Assembly: GCF_016811995.1 (NCBI RefSeq)
Contig: NZ_CP069159.1
Coordinates: 1,302,001-1,366,000 of the forward strand
Length of the DNA: 64,000 nucleotides
DNA from: Citrobacter sp. R56
Lineage (GTDB): Bacteria > Pseudomonadota > Gammaproteobacteria > Enterobacterales > Enterobacteriaceae
Direction of reading: 5' to 3'
Part shown: positions 3,245 through 20,060 of the stretch, piece after piece
Numbering within the stretch: the stretch's first letter is position 1
Layout of the letters: every line of letters begins with the position of its first letter
Notes under the pieces: model-generated
Seen by the model: only the letters and a program-made list of their open reading frames with translations
Databases searched by the model: none
What the model was told of the DNA's origin: nothing
Position numbers and translations under genes: made by a program

Positions 3245-6860
<3,616 letters not shown>

Positions 6861-7710: not shown

Positions 7711-10464
<2,754 letters not shown>

Positions 10465-13476: not shown

Positions 13477-13480
13477 TCTT

Positions 13481-13509
13481 GCCGGGCGGAGGTTTCGCCT
13501 TACCCGGCT
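13481..13509. repeat. REP (palindromic unit) after hda
   Basis: GCCGGGCGGAGG then TTTCGCC then TTACCCGGC: an imperfect palindrome of the enterobacterial REP/PU type. It lies between the converging hda and M17 peptidase genes, a usual REP location, and marks the left edge of the accessory island. Confidence 0.7.
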
Positions 13510-13518
13510 ACACACAGC

Positions 13519-14949
13519 TCACGCCTGACGCATATCCTCCAGGAGATGCTCTACCAGCAGGGGAATCGGCCTGCCTGAGGCAACACTCTTCCCGTTTTCC
13601 CGCCATAGCGCCGTACCGCTAATATCCAGATGCGCCCAGGGAATTGTCGGCGGGCAAAAGTGGTGTAGCAACCAGGCGGCGGAAGCGCTGATCGCCGCGT
13701 TATTGCCGGGCGTATTGCACAGATCGGCAATGGCGCTTTCGGTCTGTTTTTTCAACCGCGCATCAAGCGGTAGCGACCAGACTTCATCTCCGCACTGTTT
13801 TCCGGCTACGTTTAGCGCCTGACGCAAAGGTTCATCCTGAGTCATGAGTCCGTTCAGTTCATAGCCCAGCGCTTTCACTACCGCACCGGTTAAGGTTGCC
13901 ATATCAATAAGATACCTGGCCTGTGGATGTCGCTGGCTGGCCCAGGCAATCGCGTCTGCCAGCACCAGTCTTCCTTCTGCATCCGTATTATTGATTTCCA
14001 CCGTCAGACCGTTGCAGGCGCGCGCCACGCTACCCGGCTGCATGGCGTCAGGGCCGATGGCGTTTTCAGCCAGCGCCAGCACGCCCATAATGCGAACCGG
14101 TAAATGTAACTCTGCAACCGTCAGCAGCAATCCCAGCACATTGGCTGCGCCGCACATGTCGTACTTCATGGTGTACATACCCGCGCCTTCTTTCAGCCAC
14201 AGGCCGCCGGTATCAAACGTAATACCTTTTCCCACATAGCAGCGTACCGGACCCTCGGCGATGCCATCGTAGTGAATGGCAAGCAAATGCGGCGGACAGG
14301 TTGCCCCTTTACCGACGGCATGAAGCAGACCCAATTGCTGTTCAATAATCTGTTTTTCATCAAGTGCTTCGCAGCGAAGGGCAGGGTAGTCGGAGCACAG
14401 CCTTTGTGCTTCTGTCACCACAAACTGCGGCGTACAGCGGTCTGACGGAATATCGGCCAGGCGGCGAGCGGCAAGCATGCCATTGGCAATCGCCTGCTGT
14501 TGGCGAAATAGCGCCTCTAATCTTTTTTGCTGCGCGGGCAGACAGAGTGCATCTATATGGCAAACTCGCACTGACGCATGGTCTGCCTTTTTGAGCTGTA
14601 AATCGCTGAGCCGGTGCGCCTGATTGAACAAAAAACGCAATAACTGCATCAGGACGGTGTCATTGATGTCCGTCACATCAATGACCACACGGGAACTGAC
14701 AGGCTCTGCCAGCACCGGACGCAACGCGCCCAGCAAACTTTCGGTCAGCGGATCGTGCCAGAAGGCTTCGGGGAGTAACGTAATACGTGCAAACGGCGCG
14801 CAACCGAAACACGTATCGGCTGTTTTATCCTGCTGGCGCATCTCGTTGATGAGCGGGGTATCGGGTAGCAGCGGGCAGGATGCGCGTGCAATAAGATGGC
14901 TTTCCGGTTGCGTCTCTGTGAGTGAATGAATTAGCTGCCAGGTAATCAT
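13519..14949 (-). CDS. M17 leucyl-aminopeptidase-family protein
   Basis: A 476-residue cytosolic metallopeptidase of the M17 (PepA/PepB) family, which removes N-terminal residues from short peptides using two metal ions. Every active-site residue can be placed: K241 and D246 in VGKGITFDTGG, K253 in WLKEGAGM, D264 in KYDMCGAA, and D323, E325 and R327 in NNTDAEGRL. It should be active. I start it at the ATG at 14949, which overlaps the previous gene's TAA as TAATG with a GAGGAGGAA ribosome-binding site directly upstream, so translation is coupled. The 17 extra codons upstream lie inside the previous gene. It is not the E. coli PepA or PepB orthologue by position. Third gene of the island operon; substrate unknown. 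Confidence 0.88.
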   Translation of the reverse strand: MITWQLIHSLTETQPESHLIARASCPLLPDTPLINEMRQQDKTADTCFGCAPFARITLLPEAFWHDPLTESLLGALRPVLAEPVSSRVVIDVTDINDTVLMQLLRFLFNQAHRLSDLQLKKADHASVRVCHIDALCLPAQQKRLEALFRQQQAIANGMLAARRLADIPSDRCTPQFVVTEAQRLCSDYPALRCEALDEKQIIEQQLGLLHAVGKGATCPPHLLAIHYDGIAEGPVRCYVGKGITFDTGGLWLKEGAGMYTMKYDMCGAANVLGLLLTVAELHLPVRIMGVLALAENAIGPDAMQPGSVARACNGLTVEINNTDAEGRLVLADAIAWASQRHPQARYLIDMATLTGAVVKALGYELNGLMTQDEPLRQALNVAGKQCGDEVWSLPLDARLKKQTESAIADLCNTPGNNAAISASAAWLLHHFCPPTIPWAHLDISGTALWRENGKSVASGRPIPLLVEHLLEDMRQA

Positions 14950-15905
14950 TATTCCTCCTCTATCGGGGCACGAATTCGCGCAGCGTAGGCCTGCATCCAT
15001 TCTTCATCGACCGGCTGATAATGCGTCTTTTCGCGTTGGCGCTCAGCGCGATAAACGGTAAGCGGATGGTGGGCGGAGGCCACCGTGAATGAAAAGGTTT
15101 TAATATTGGTGGCGGCGCCAAACTCACCTTTATTGTTCATACAGACAACAGAGAGATCGCCCGCGCGGCCAAAGCGCGACATCAGCTTGTCTTCCAGTTC
15201 GAACACCACAGAATCGGCGGCGTGTTGCGGCGTCATCCCCTGCGCCATGCGGCGCACGATTTCATAACTGACGCAGCCTTTCATCAGGTCTTCTCCGACG
15301 CCTGTTGCGGTCGCCGCGCCTGTCTCACTGTCGCAGTAGAAACCGGAACCCATGATTGGCGAGTCGCCAATACGTCCGCGTTTTTTCATAAACAGGCCAC
15401 TGGTGGAGGTCGCGACGCTCATTGAACCGTGTTTATCAAGCCCGATAATTCCGACCGTATCGTGGCCGTCATAGGGGCCCAGACCTTTATCCAGCGTTTC
15501 GCGACAGCGCTTGCGATAATGTTGCATAGCGCGGTCAGTCAGCATGGTTTTGCTCGCAAATCCCTGATTCAGCGCCCACTCGCGAGCACCCTGACCCACC
15601 AGCAAATTGTTATAGCGCTGGCGGCTTAACGCGTGGGCCACCCGCACCGGGTTGGCGATATCGACCAGATTGCCCACCGCGCCAAACGCCAGCGTGTCGC
15701 CATCCATAAAGGCAGCGTCCAGTTCGACATCGCCATTTTCAGTGGGCAAACCGCCGTAGCCAACGGATTTATACAACGGGAAGTCTTCAACGGCGGCAAT
15801 GGCGTCGACGACGGCAGAGGCCGCGCGTTTTCCTGCCGCCAGCGCAGAGGCAGATTCCGTGACGCCCTCAAGCGCCATTCGCCAGGTGGCGATAATTCCC
15901 CACAT
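14949..15905 (-). CDS. Glycosylasparaginase/isoaspartyl-peptidase family Ntn hydrolase
   Basis: A 318-residue protein of the Asparaginase_2 family, which matures by self-cleavage before a threonine that becomes the nucleophile. Here that residue is T150 in GHDTVGIIGLD, followed by GRIGDSPI (177-184) and a GVGEDLM segment. The HDT form of the nucleophile motif, the N-terminal ATW, and the segment VGYGGLPTENGDVELDAAFM look like glycosylasparaginases rather than isoaspartyl peptidases such as IaaA, which have HGTVG. Glycosylasparaginases split GlcNAc-Asn into aspartate and the amino sugar. There is no signal peptide, so it should act in the cytosol. It lies 3 nt after the EIIC gene and overlaps the peptidase gene by 1 nt. 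The exact substrate is inferred. Confidence 0.85.
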   Translation of the reverse strand: MWGIIATWRMALEGVTESASALAAGKRAASAVVDAIAAVEDFPLYKSVGYGGLPTENGDVELDAAFMDGDTLAFGAVGNLVDIANPVRVAHALSRQRYNNLLVGQGAREWALNQGFASKTMLTDRAMQHYRKRCRETLDKGLGPYDGHDTVGIIGLDKHGSMSVATSTSGLFMKKRGRIGDSPIMGSGFYCDSETGAATATGVGEDLMKGCVSYEIVRRMAQGMTPQHAADSVVFELEDKLMSRFGRAGDLSVVCMNNKGEFGAATNIKTFSFTVASAHHPLTVYRAERQREKTHYQPVDEEWMQAYAARIRAPIEEE

Positions 15906-15908
15906 GGT

Positions 15909-17228
15909 TTACTCCTGTTTAGCCAGCGTGGCTTCGGTTTGCGTAAGAGACGCGATTTCTGCAGCGCGGTATTGCTTGTCCAGAATACGCAGGAAAGGCA
16001 GATACAGCATGGCGCCAATCAGCAGGTTGATAAGCTGCATGATGCTACCGCTGATATGCCCGGTAACGATAAAGCCGCTGATGACCGGTGGCAGCGTCCA
16101 GGGGATAAACACCCCGGTCGTCACCGCCACCATGCCGATTTTCATGGCCGCGTACTGGATAGTCACCAGCACCAGCGGTACCAGATTGAATGGAATCAGC
16201 ATGATCGGGTTCATGATCACCGGCAGGCCAAACAGAATCGGTTCATTGATATTGAACAGTGATGCGCCCGCGCCCAGTCGGGCCACTTCCCGCATGTTTT
16301 TGCTACGGGCGAAAATCAACATGGCGATAACCAGCGACAGCGTCGCGCCTGCGCCACCCATCCAGATCATGTCAAAAAATTGTTCGGTGATAATGTGCGG
16401 CGGCGTGATGCCCGCCTGAATCGCGGCGATGTTATCGGTCTGATTTTCCATCCATGACGGACGAATAATACCGTTGACCATCGAACCAGAGTTGATCCCC
16501 ACCGACCACAAAATGGTAATGCTAAATACCGTCAGCAGCGCGCCAATGTAAGAGGTGCCGAAGTGGCGTACCGGGGTGGCGACGACTTCGTATATAAACT
16601 GATGAATTGTCTGATAATGGGTGTTCTGGAAGAGAATACGAATGGCGAGCACCAGAATCATCACCAGCAATGCCGGAATCAGCGCGGCGAAGGACTCCTG
16701 CACGGCTGGCGGCACGCCATCGGGCATTTTGATCACCAGCTTTTTACGCTTCAGCCAGCAGAATAGCTCTGTCCAGAGCAGCGAGCCAATCATGGCCACG
16801 AACAGCCCTTTGCTGCCGATCCACTCAACCGGCATCACCGTAATACCGCCGTTTTCGGCGACTTTAATAAACGGGGTGAGGATAAGAAAACTGACCAGCG
16901 ACAGAATCCCGCAGGAGAGACGGTCATCGCCATAATGTTCTGCCAGTCTGAAGCCGACCAGAAAGCAGATAAACAGCGACATGGTAGAGAAAACGGCATT
17001 AAACGGGATCTCAACGATGTTGCCCCAGTTTTCGCCAAAGGTGCTGGACATGAAATGCTGATAGCCCTCATTGGGAAACGACGAGATCACCAGCAGGATA
17101 GAACCGACGATAATAAATGGCATGAACGAGACGTATGCGCCGCGAATCGCACCTAAATGACGCTGCTGCGCCGTTTTTGCTGCGATGGGCATCAGTTTCG
17201 CTTCAAGAAATCCCAGAACATTGTTCAT
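15909..17228 (-). CDS. PTS EIIC membrane component, lactose/cellobiose family
   Basis: A 439-residue polytopic inner-membrane protein with about ten hydrophobic segments. It is the sugar-translocating IIC unit of the Lac family (CelB/ChbC-like). Diagnostic segments are GINSGSMVNGIIRPSW, IWMGGAGATLSLVIAML and LFNINEPILFGLPVIMNP; the NEP motif is part of the substrate site. EIIC proteins need EIIA and EIIB to pass phosphate from HPr, but neither domain is fused to it or encoded anywhere in this window, so partners must act in trans. First gene of the operon with the glycosylasparaginase-like and M17 genes, which suggests it brings in their substrate. The start ATG gives MNNVLGFLEAKLMPIAAK, a normal N-terminus for the family. 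Confidence 0.9.
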   Translation of the reverse strand: MNNVLGFLEAKLMPIAAKTAQQRHLGAIRGAYVSFMPFIIVGSILLVISSFPNEGYQHFMSSTFGENWGNIVEIPFNAVFSTMSLFICFLVGFRLAEHYGDDRLSCGILSLVSFLILTPFIKVAENGGITVMPVEWIGSKGLFVAMIGSLLWTELFCWLKRKKLVIKMPDGVPPAVQESFAALIPALLVMILVLAIRILFQNTHYQTIHQFIYEVVATPVRHFGTSYIGALLTVFSITILWSVGINSGSMVNGIIRPSWMENQTDNIAAIQAGITPPHIITEQFFDMIWMGGAGATLSLVIAMLIFARSKNMREVARLGAGASLFNINEPILFGLPVIMNPIMLIPFNLVPLVLVTIQYAAMKIGMVAVTTGVFIPWTLPPVISGFIVTGHISGSIMQLINLLIGAMLYLPFLRILDKQYRAAEIASLTQTEATLAKQE

Positions 17229-17270
17229 TGTGAACTCCGTACAAGATCAAGTGACGTGAAGTGTGTTATG

Positions 17271-17320
17271 TCTGCGGATTATCAGTGAAGCATGGCGACT
17301 GAAAGGTGAATCAGGTCACA
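17271..17320 (-). promoter_or_regulatory. Class II CRP promoter of the island operon
   Basis: On the minus strand, GATAAT (17283-17278) is a 5/6 match to the -10 box. It implies a start at 17271 and a 42-nt leader before the EIIC ATG. A CRP-type site, GGTGA-N6-TCACA on the plus strand at 17305-17320 (9 of 10 core bases), is centred at -41.5 from that start. That is the exact class II activation distance. A poor -35 element is expected for such a promoter. The prediction is from sequence only. Confidence 0.65.
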
Positions 17321-17383
17321 ATGTAATCGCTGTATTACTATAAATCTCACATGATTAGTTGCGGAAATGCGGAAATTCTTACG

Positions 17384-18229
17384 ATGGAAATCAAATTACA
17401 CGCCAATGCCACGACCACACCACGTATTCGCCGTTATCTCCAAAATTCGGATAAAAGTGACAGAGAACTCGCCGCTGAGCTTGGCATATCGGTGACTACC
17501 GTGAGGCGCTGGCGTTGCCGCGAAGAGGTTTTAGACAAAAAAACGACGCCCGCTGTGATACACAAAGCGATGAGACAAGAACAGGTGTCTCTGGTCAATG
17601 CATTGCGTGATGTGTCGGGCGCACCGCTGGATGAACTGCTGTTGCTGGTGAATGACGTGTTGGGGATACCGGTCTCCCGAGCGACGCTGAACCGGTATTT
17701 AAAACCGGTTGCGCCTAAACACCGGGACGCGCCGTTACAAGGGAAAAAAGCGTTAAAAGCGGGGCTGTTGCCACATCGACTGGAGGTGCATCACCTTCTG
17801 CTGTCATTGCATATGGACGATGGCGGCGAGCATCATTTGCTGTGGGCGCGTGAACCGTTAAGCGGATGGTGTTTTGCCAGACTGTATGCCGGGATCTCAC
17901 CGCAGCGGGTGGTGAACTGGCTGGAAGAATTACTGAGTGAATGTCCGGCTGATATACAATCTATTGAGACTTTTCTTTTTGAGACTGACAGCGCCAGCGT
18001 GAGAAGCGTGCTAAAGCAACGTGGAATTGAGCACAAAATCAATCCGGGTTCACCCGTCAGGGCGCAGGTGGCTGTTCCGTTAATGACGATAATTCCGCGA
18101 TTGCAGACAGAATCCGCCAGTCAGTTACTGATTCAGATATGCGAATTTTATAACGCAGGGCGGGCGCAAAAAAAATTGGGCGATAAGACGCCGCAGGCTT
18201 TTCTTGAGGCGCTGCGGCGTGAGGATTAG
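17384..18229 (+). CDS. Transposase-derived HTH protein, putative regulator
   Basis: A 281-residue protein. Its N-terminus (ANATTTPRIRRYLQNSDKSD, then RELAAELGISVTTVRRWRC) is a helix-turn-helix like that of IS481/IS3-type transposases. The C-terminus FYNAGRAQKKLGDKTPQAFL resembles the end of an rve integrase core. In between, the DDE triad is not convincing: a TD remains in FETDSAS, but the region where the catalytic Glu belongs reads RAQVAVPLM. There are no terminal inverted repeats nearby. I infer a domesticated transposase that works as a DNA-binding regulator of the divergent EIIC operon. The start at 17384 fits a TATAAA box at 17339-17344, whose transcript would begin near 17351; the frame is open from the ATG at 17351. 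It overlaps yfgD tail-to-tail by 4 bp. Confidence 0.7.
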   Translation: MEIKLHANATTTPRIRRYLQNSDKSDRELAAELGISVTTVRRWRCREEVLDKKTTPAVIHKAMRQEQVSLVNALRDVSGAPLDELLLLVNDVLGIPVSRATLNRYLKPVAPKHRDAPLQGKKALKAGLLPHRLEVHHLLLSLHMDDGGEHHLLWAREPLSGWCFARLYAGISPQRVVNWLEELLSECPADIQSIETFLFETDSASVRSVLKQRGIEHKINPGSPVRAQVAVPLMTIIPRLQTESASQLLIQICEFYNAGRAQKKLGDKTPQAFLEALRRED

Positions 18230-18585
18230 CGGACGATGTCCAGTACCTGTTCTGGTGGGCGACCGATACGTGCCTGGCCGTTGGCAACCACAATCGGGCG
18301 CTCCATCAGTTTCGGGTTTTCTACCATTGCCTGAATCAGCGCCTCTTCGCTCAACTGGCTGTCTGCCAGGTTGAGCGAAGCATAAAGATTTTCTTTCTGG
18401 CGCATAAGCTCACGCGCGCTGGACATCCCCAGCATTTTTAGCAGCTCACGCAGGGTAGCGGCATCAGCGGGGCTTTCCAGATAGAGCACCACTTCCGGCT
18501 CCACGCCGTTTGATTTCAGCAGGCTAAGCGTCTCGCGGCTCTTCGAGCAGCGAGGATTATGGTAGATTTTTACCGTGTCAGACAT
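18226..18585 (-). CDS. yfgD: ArsC-family thioredoxin-fold protein YfgD
   Basis: A 119-residue protein of the ArsC/arsenate reductase family, matching E. coli YfgD (also called ArsC-like). The active-site cysteine is C13 in YHNPRCSKSRETL. The C-terminal RPIVVANGQARIGRPPE contains the conserved arginine region that holds the oxyanion in arsenate reductases. No ars operon genes lie nearby, so a role in arsenate reduction is family inference; a general glutaredoxin-linked oxidoreductase is equally possible. It lies 11 bp downstream of bepA on the same strand and probably shares its transcript. Confidence 0.93.
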   Translation of the reverse strand: MSDTVKIYHNPRCSKSRETLSLLKSNGVEPEVVLYLESPADAATLRELLKMLGMSSARELMRQKENLYASLNLADSQLSEEALIQAMVENPKLMERPIVVANGQARIGRPPEQVLDIVR

Positions 18586-18596
18586 GAGTTCTCCTT

Positions 18597-20060
18597 TTAC
18601 ATCTTTTCATACGGCTTGAAGCGCTGCTGTAGCTGGCGCAACTGGTCGATGCGGGCATCGTAACGTGCCTGCTGCTGACTCCCCAGTTTGACCTGAGAGC
18701 TTGCGTTGCTGAGCATGGTGATCGCCTGATCCAGACGCCCCGACAGTGCATACACTTCAGCACGCGCAGCCAGTTCTTGATCGCGGTTATTTATCGCCGC
18801 TTCCACCTGCGCCAGCAGGTCCCAGCCGTTGCTGTCATCTTTATTATTGAAGGTATAGCGATTGAGTATGGTTGCGGCCTCTTTCGCTTGTCCTCCCTGC
18901 AACAAGGCATTGGCCAGGTTGAGTTGCAGGACGGGGTTAACGCGCAGATCGCGGGCGCTTTTCAGCCGGTTAATGGCGTCGTTGGGTTTCTTCTGACCGA
19001 GATCGATATCGGTTGCCAGGTCGAGATACCACGCATTGTTCGGCTCTGCGCTCAGCAATGGCTGCAGCGTTTTACGCGCCTCGTCATATTTATTGGCTTC
19101 CATCGCCTGTAACGCTTTGCCGTATTGCGCAGCGCGTTGCTGACGAACGTTGCCTTTGCTCCATTCATCCAACAGGTCGCTGGTTAACTGGTTGCGCCCT
19201 GAATTGTACATCCCCAGCGTACGCGCTTTCGCCAGATAAAAGTCTTCTGAAGATTGCACCACGGCTGGCCGCATCTGGTTCGCACGGTTACGGGCGTCCG
19301 CGAGACGGCTTTCCGGCAAGGGGTGAGTGAGCAAAATTTCAGGCGGTCGGGTGGAGTAACGTGCCTGATCGAGCAGTTTTTCCAGGAACGTCGGCATTGC
19401 CTGGGGATCGAAGCCCGAACGTTGCAGAACCTGAATACCGATACGATCGGCTTCCTGCTCGTTTTGCTGCGTGAAGCTGATCATCCCCTGGCGCGTACCT
19501 GCCAGAGTACCGGTGAGCGCCGCCATACCCGCCTGTGGGCTGGCCATCGCCAGTAATATTGAGCCTAACGCGCCAACCCAGGTGAGCGGGGCGCTACGCT
19601 GTTGATCTTCCATCGCACGCGCCAGGTGACGCTGGGTCACGTGGGAGATTTCGTGCGCCATAACGGAAGCCAGCTGGCTTTCGTTGTCGGAATAGCGAAA
19701 AAGCGCGGAATGCAGAACGACGTTGCCGCCGAAGAAGGCAAAGGCGTTAATTTCGTCGTTATTAATCAAAAAGAAATGGAAGGGAGTTTTCACCGAATCG
19801 GCATGAGAGACCAGGCGCATCCCGAGGGTATTGATGTACTGTACCAGCAGCGGATCGTTAATCAGCGGCGCGCTGCCTCGCAGCTGGCGAACATAATAAT
19901 CGCCCATCTGCATTTCCTGACCGATGGAAAGCGTGCTGGCTGCCGAGGTCCCCATATCGGGCAGTGTGTCCGTTGGATCTGCAAACGCGGGCGCTATCTG
20001 ACCGAGGGTCAGCGCAGCGATGAGGGTAGCAACCAGGTTTTTTTTAAACTGCCTGAACAT
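18597..20060 (-). CDS. bepA: BepA, periplasmic OM-assembly protease/chaperone
   Basis: A 487-residue M48-family metallopeptidase, the E. coli length. A signal peptide ends at about AFA-DPTD (residue 27). The zinc site is HEISH at about residues 136-140, and the third ligand is in EQEADRIG at about 201. The C-terminal 180 residues are TPR repeats that bind the Bam complex. BepA helps assemble LptD and degrades misassembled outer-membrane proteins. I start it at the ATG of MFRQFKKNL (20060). The frame stays open for 64 more codons upstream, but that part is not conserved and would destroy the signal peptide. It is divergent from perM. Confidence 0.96.

Follow-up and report, generated by a model that had tools for sequence, protein, structure and literature searches.

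What might a Citrobacter do with a sugar transporter subunit encoded immediately upstream of a glycosylasparaginase-like hydrolase and a peptidase, and what is a transposase-derived gene doing beside them? The question is raised by a four-gene block in a stretch of 64,000 nucleotides (hereafter the window; contig NZ_CP069159.1, positions 1,302,001 to 1,366,000) of the 4.71 Mb genome of Citrobacter sp. R56. Three minus-strand genes encode a 439-aa phosphotransferase system (PTS) EIIC of the Lac/cellobiose family (window positions 15909-17228), a 318-aa cytosolic glycosylasparaginase-like Ntn-hydrolase with Thr150 as predicted nucleophile (14949-15905), and a 476-aa leucyl-aminopeptidase-like protein of the M17 family (13519-14949). 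The divergent plus-strand gene (17384-18229) encodes a 281-aa helix-turn-helix (HTH) protein that derives from an IS481 transposase, is catalytically degenerate and is probably a regulator. We consider it probable that the block is a CRP-controlled operon for catabolism of N-acetylglucosamine-asparagine (GlcNAc-Asn), or a close N-glycosyl-asparagine, regulated by the domesticated IS481 protein. In this pathway the EIIC, with EIIB and EIIA acting in trans, would import and 6-phosphorylate GlcNAc-Asn, and the cytosolic hydrolase would cleave the beta-aspartyl-glycosylamine bond, giving aspartate and 1-amino-GlcNAc-6-phosphate; the latter would lose ammonia to yield GlcNAc-6-phosphate for NagA and NagB, whose genes are assumed to be present in the genome. 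The M17 enzyme would trim short glycopeptides to free Asn, and the divergent protein would bind a conserved dyad at the EIIC promoter and regulate the operon, either positively or negatively.

Conserved linkage, the check proposed in the earlier note on this DNA, is what a scan of genome contigs revealed. The best 80 of 215 hydrolase relatives, sorted by hydrolase score, comprise 52 gammaproteobacterial and 28 Firmicutes loci, a sorting with which the locus titles agree by eye except for L054; the closest named relative among these 80 is from Citrobacter sp. (97% identity). The EIIC, M17 and IS481-like genes all lie within 3 kb of the hydrolase gene in 52/52 gammaproteobacterial loci, and an EIIC gene does so in 22 of the 28 Firmicutes loci. 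No M17 gene is found within 3 kb of the hydrolase in any of the 28 Firmicutes loci; in L062, which was scanned gene by gene, the neighbours are a PRD regulator, EIIA, EIIB, a GrdB-like protein, an M20 dipeptidase similar to Sapep/PepV, CutC and YitT, and the M20 dipeptidase is also present in L056 and L059. Judged by gene content, the M20 dipeptidase is the stand-in for M17 in the Firmicutes loci where scanned, and this exchange points to some peptide cleavage as part of the pathway. Annotated relatives of the hydrolase in Enterococcus (52% identity) and L. curvatus (50%) also sit in clusters of dipeptidase and PTS genes, as far as the incomplete PLSDB gene table shows for E. gilvus, E. raffinosus and L. 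curvatus. A third context is provided by genome G264 (L182), where a 46% identical relative lies beside a Glc-type EIICB, a NagB-like deaminase and a LacI regulator. Two further proteins recur in the Firmicutes glycosylasparaginase clusters: the short GrdB-like protein, resembling glycine reductase B (L062:7418-7939), and the CutC-family protein (L062:10076-10810), the latter also seen in L055, L056 and L064.

The earlier note knew of no described pathway with such a trio, a claim that does not hold, since loci joining a glycosylasparaginase, a transporter and a dipeptidase have been published (ega, PMC11160706; alf-2, PMC6960285). The catabolic part of the window operon is best read as an enterobacterial variant of the Enterococcus faecalis ega pathway and is related to Lactobacillus casei alf-2. 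As summarized in PMC11160706 (citing Combret et al. 2023/24), ega comprises the glycosylasparaginase EgaG, EIIB and EIIC of the Lac/cellobiose type, a GntR regulator and a dipeptidase, for use of GlcNAc-Asn. Both systems link a glycosylasparaginase to a Lac-family EIIC, whereas the window operon has M17 rather than the M20 Sapep dipeptidase, an IS481-derived protein rather than GntR, no EIIB or EIIA, and a Gram-negative host; the E. gilvus and E. raffinosus clusters have the ega content plus an EIIA. The alf-2 locus (AlfH, AlfC, AsnA2, PepV and SugK), as far as described in PMC6960285, shares with the window a cytosolic glycosylasparaginase devoid of a signal peptide and a linked peptidase. 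It differs in that fucosylated GlcNAc-Asn is imported by a major facilitator superfamily transporter and a sugar kinase is present, unlike the window locus with its PTS component and neither kinase nor fucosidase. The Salmonella fra locus for fructose-asparagine places a sugar kinase and a deglycase beside an asparaginase; no fra-type kinase or deglycase is found among the four locus genes, to which that search was confined. If the GlcNAc-Asn pathway is real, common Enterobacterales (Citrobacter, Enterobacter, Klebsiella oxytoca, Kluyvera, Lelliottia, Hafnia and Serratia) could feed on the aspartyl-glucosamine stubs that remain from host N-glycoproteins, which in the literature searched has been reported so far for Enterococcus faecalis and Lactobacillus casei.

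The EIIC passes the family model TIGR00410 (444.6 bits, cut-off 236) and matches the bcChbC structure 3qnq with 380 bits; along this alignment His250 of bcChbC, a residue with a substrate role, becomes Asn246. Asparagine occupies this position in all 78 other hydrolase-linked EIICs (54/54 gammaproteobacterial, 21/21 Firmicutes and 3/3 annotated Enterococcus and L. curvatus proteins, with the split EIIC of L079 omitted from the count). Among 50 Lac-family EIICs from elsewhere in Enterobacteriaceae genomes, drawn from 30 returned loci and 20 regions picked from a longer list, several per genome and some partial, the residue is His in 47, Ser in two and Asn in one. The linked EIIC rows displayed also retain E334 of bcChbC, the NINEP-motif glutamate. 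A tree splits the hydrolase-linked EIICs into two clades, but a topology that unites them is not rejected (p-AU 0.125) and long branches are involved; the idea that the Asn-type EIIC arose twice independently was considered and dropped. The Asn-for-His exchange appears to be new within the literature searched and, if it holds, would provide a one-residue marker to predict which "cellobiose" EIICs carry glycosyl-asparagine. The EIIC gene of L096 (2458-3777) is split into two open reading frames (ORFs), perhaps as a pseudogene or through a sequencing error.

How would such an EIIC be energized? The idea in the earlier note that it imports a sugar-asparagine conjugate survives; overlooked there were the 6-phosphorylated product that a PTS would deliver and the absence of EIIB and EIIA genes from the operon. 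Both genes follow the M17 gene in 7/52 gammaproteobacterial loci. Free-standing Lac-type EIIB/EIIA pairs occur twice in the Citrobacter genome, once in chb and once near rpoC without an adjacent EIIC (L179:6445-7072, between a GGDEF-like ORF and rpoC). An EIIB at least 87% identical to the near-rpoC protein is found in 65 of 294 family genomes and in 27 of the 31 that possess the hydrolase; the four hydrolase genomes that do not have it (G126, G228, G171 and G286) have EIIB and EIIA in the operon, G171 and G286 being the genomes of L048 and L049 and hence no new cases. The EIIA and the near-rpoC site were viewed in the Citrobacter genome itself and, by ORF size, in G056. Sequence similarity is undiscriminating here, the unlinked EIIB being 47-50% identical to five gammaproteobacterial operon EIIBs and 44% identical to chbB.

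Several observations weigh against the pathway as proposed. The unlinked EIIB also occurs in 38 of 263 genomes without the hydrolase, and in G056 its homologue is accompanied by a His-type EIIC, so the unlinked EIIB may serve another sugar, and the notion of a dedicated unlinked EIIB/EIIA pair is weakened. An EIIC gene is absent within 3 kb of the hydrolase in six of the 28 Firmicutes loci; the neighbours scanned in L055, L060, L071 and L072 include no PTS genes, and L058 has an EIIA, although all six loci nonetheless keep the hydrolase residues R9 and M10. The EIIC narrowly passes the cellobiose-naming model TIGR00359 (444.6 against 434.45 bits). Finally, the notion of an EIIC-hydrolase-peptidase pathway put forward in the earlier note agrees with the linkage and with ega (PMC11160706) and alf-2 (PMC6960285), but its peptidase step is less secure, as the L. 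casei pepV mutant is described as growing like the wild type on 6'FN-Asn (PMC6960285).

It may also be asked whether the shape of the pathway is right and the sugar is not GlcNAc, the substrate being instead another N-glycosyl or glycosylated amino acid such as Glc-Asn, GalNAc-Asn or a glycated peptide. The sugar is not fixable from sequence, neither nagA nor nagB lies inside the operon, and the name that TIGR00359 gives to the EIIC is "cellobiose". Against this, relatives of the system are in ega-type clusters, for which Combret et al. report use of GlcNAc-Asn according to the paper's title (cited in PMC12502629 and PMC11160706), and in G264 a hydrolase relative is paired with a NagB-like deaminase; another sugar seems unlikely to us, if worth keeping in mind, and GlcNAc-Asn stays the favoured candidate.

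The hydrolase is nearest to solved glycosylasparaginases both by sequence and by its predicted Ntn-hydrolase fold. The HDT and ATW motifs ascribed to it in the earlier note are present, as are the M17 motifs of the peptidase, and the N-terminus, judged by eye, agrees with the claimed lack of a signal peptide. Residues W8, T150, G170, R178, D181 and G202 are kept in 40/40 operon-type rows, of which 17 are gammaproteobacterial (the window and 16 of the 52 loci) and 23 come from the 28 Firmicutes loci. W8, T150, R178 and D181 are the counterparts of Trp-11, Thr-152, Arg-180 and Asp-183 in EmAGA, as given in the available part of PMC13204146. The fold, nucleophile and pocket residues are shared with the Elizabethkingia (Flavobacterium) glycosylasparaginase, which differs in having N12/F13 and a Met at the K175 position where the operon hydrolase has R9/M10 and K175. 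We hypothesize that R9 and K175 might form a 6-phosphate pocket; the G264 relative has Asn at position 175. The metal-binding and catalytic motifs of the M17 protein align with 8pz0.

Could the operon instead serve isoaspartyl dipeptides, with the hydrolase acting as a beta-aspartyl peptidase like E. coli IaaA, M17 finishing the peptides and the EIIC being a coincidental neighbour? We regard this as improbable and rejected it, because the genome has its own IaaA-like paralogue, 31% identical to the operon hydrolase, with His at the position where all 40 operon-type rows have Trp8. Trp8 and M10 set the operon hydrolase apart from this paralogue, and R9 and M10 set it apart from the secreted enzymes; R9 alone does not discriminate against IaaA, since it aligns with an Arg there. 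Coincidence is also hard to argue when the EIIC linkage is found in two phyla and a Glc-type EIICB accompanies the enzyme in a third context.

The glycosyl-asparagine operon would, in our reading, be controlled by the divergent IS481-like protein, which had been described in the earlier note as a divergent transposase-derived protein and proves to travel with the system. Its gene likely starts at 17384 rather than at 17351, where the ORF opens, because the N-terminus MEIKLHANATTTPR is conserved. The protein scores 41.9 bits with the IS481 model, against an NCBIfam cut-off of 224. Across 45 aligned operon-type rows, a subset of the loci from which the split L038 gene is among those omitted, the HTH block is conserved and the catalytic DDE triad is lost (first D in 2/45, second D in 0/45, E in 1/45), while four insertion sequence (IS) rows keep all three residues. 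The predicted model has two HTHs and an integrase-like RNase H fold, and Foldseek matches it best to IstA, at low TM-scores over the whole chain (0.30/0.24), with the VIA rows covering mainly residues 126-281. Six pairs of IS481-like genes give dN/dS values of 0.05-0.44, indicating purifying selection. The gene, present as a single copy in the Citrobacter genome, is found in 31/31 hydrolase genomes and, at an E-value threshold of 1e-5, has only one 28% match among 263 others; set against this, the 31 genomes overlap with the 52 loci and the co-occurrence P values are not phylogeny-corrected. Loss of the DDE triad, purifying selection, co-occurrence, and a dyad that stays at the promoter where the gene has moved together indicate that the protein is probably a regulator. 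That it is a decayed IS carried by chance is highly improbable: its outside relatives are indeed IS481-type transposases (six near-identical copies in G555) and the gene is split in L038, but the HTH conservation, selection and co-occurrence described above speak against it, no convincing pair of terminal inverted repeats brackets the gene within 17100-18600, and the linkage persists in rearranged loci and at 11 sites elsewhere. The split L038 gene (Trabulsiella; 5739-6523, in two ORFs) is perhaps a pseudogene or a sequencing error, and the G555 IS copies do have TGT ends.

Where might the regulator bind? The 155-bp gap between the divergent genes holds a conserved imperfect dyad, AACTAATCATGTGAGATTTATA (17339-17360, minus strand), a putative operator. 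Its pattern, AACYAATCnnRTGAGAYTTATA, is present in 50/52 gaps (the window and 51 loci), with variants by eye in L032 and L057; L044, omitted from the gap alignment because its start reads VEIKLH, has the dyad with a score of 26.9. A CRP-like site, TGTGA-N6-TCACC (17305-17320, minus strand), occurs in 52/52 gaps against 9/2000 shuffles, at 35-36 nt from the dyad in 52/52. A -10-like GATAAT of the EIIC promoter follows at 17278-17283 (minus strand), its ATAAT keeping a constant distance of 29 nt to the CRP-like centre in 52/52, which would place CRP near -41.5 of the inferred start, the class II spacing. Two loci, L183 and L184, have the IS481-like gene at the far end of the operon, and the dyad is still upstream of the EIIC gene (scores 25.4 and 14.9); none of the five best dyad sites in either locus is near the moved gene. 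The best of 20 shuffles of L183 scores 9.5. The L184 score barely exceeds that of an unrelated site in L062, a Firmicutes locus rich in AT (13.4), which tells against that case, so the moved-gene argument is carried by L183. The pattern has one exact match in the Citrobacter genome (17339-17360), and 13 sites with at most two mismatches compared with nine for a control pattern. Descent of the operator from an IS end was also considered; the G555 and G382 IS ends were compared with the dyad by eye, and the short shared ATCATAT was unconvincing.

We tentatively suggest, as a possibility we would rate somewhat below even, that an IS481 transposase was domesticated in Enterobacterales as a one-component transcription factor, whose end-binding HTHs read a single operator and whose dead integrase domain senses a GlcNAc-Asn metabolite, the EIIC His-to-Asn exchange marking glycosyl-asparagine transporters in two phyla. 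The protein resembles IS481-family transposases in its N-terminal HTH sequence and integrase-like fold, and differs from them in its lost DDE triad, its single copy and its lack of convincing terminal repeats. It is reminiscent of TldR, derived from TnpB, in that both are mobile-element proteins turned regulators; TldR is RNA-guided, whereas the operon protein, of DDE-transposase origin, brings its own HTHs. TldR has been studied in Enterobacter (PMC13418256, in the part available). Exaptation in prokaryotes has been reviewed (PMC8987985); the accessible sections list Xre, RHH and antitoxin proteins as origins of host regulators and mention no regulator derived from a DDE transposase. Neither this operon in Gram-negative bacteria nor an IS481-derived regulator was reported in the literature searched, which mostly did not cover subscription papers, so this is weak evidence of absence; within it, the regulator appears to be new. 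If correct, the system would show plainly how a bacterial DDE transposase can become a metabolic regulator that acts locally, at a defined operator.

The layout of the block agrees with the earlier note, in which the four genes, their junctions and the divergent orientation were all correctly described. The EIIC and hydrolase genes are separated by 3 nt (TAA-ACC-ATG), and the hydrolase and M17 genes overlap at TAATG; the longest M17 ORF, on which the PF00883 score of 336.3 bits was obtained, extends to 15000, and the start is likely the overlapping ATG at 14949. The block lies between hda and yfgD, which had been called neighbours in E. coli K-12; in the strain inspected, E. coli Nissle 1917, hda does adjoin arsC/yfgD. 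A megablast search with 13480-17350 found no match in any of 5426 E. coli genomes, none of which has the operon, and a blastn search with 13519-17228 found short matches in 236/5426, none with at least 80% query coverage; the five matches listed are chbC, with 2-3% coverage. "Island" is a fair term relative to E. coli, less so given that many Enterobacteriaceae have the block at the same site: hda is within 3 kb in 40 of the 52 gammaproteobacterial loci, and L039, whose contig ends before hda, has yfgD. The 11 loci with neither gene nearby are from Klebsiella, Serratia, Hafnia, Atlantibacter, Izhakiella, Cedecea and Providencia. The title of L054, Chryseobacterium sp., is at odds with the enterobacterial block that this locus has at hda/yfgD, and its assembly is probably mislabelled or contaminated. 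Elsewhere in the window, a lone GH1 6-phospho-beta-glucosidase gene (9034-10464, plus strand) separates purM from upp, two genes that are direct neighbours in E. coli Nissle, and an ORF of the same size adjoins upp in L004 and L057.

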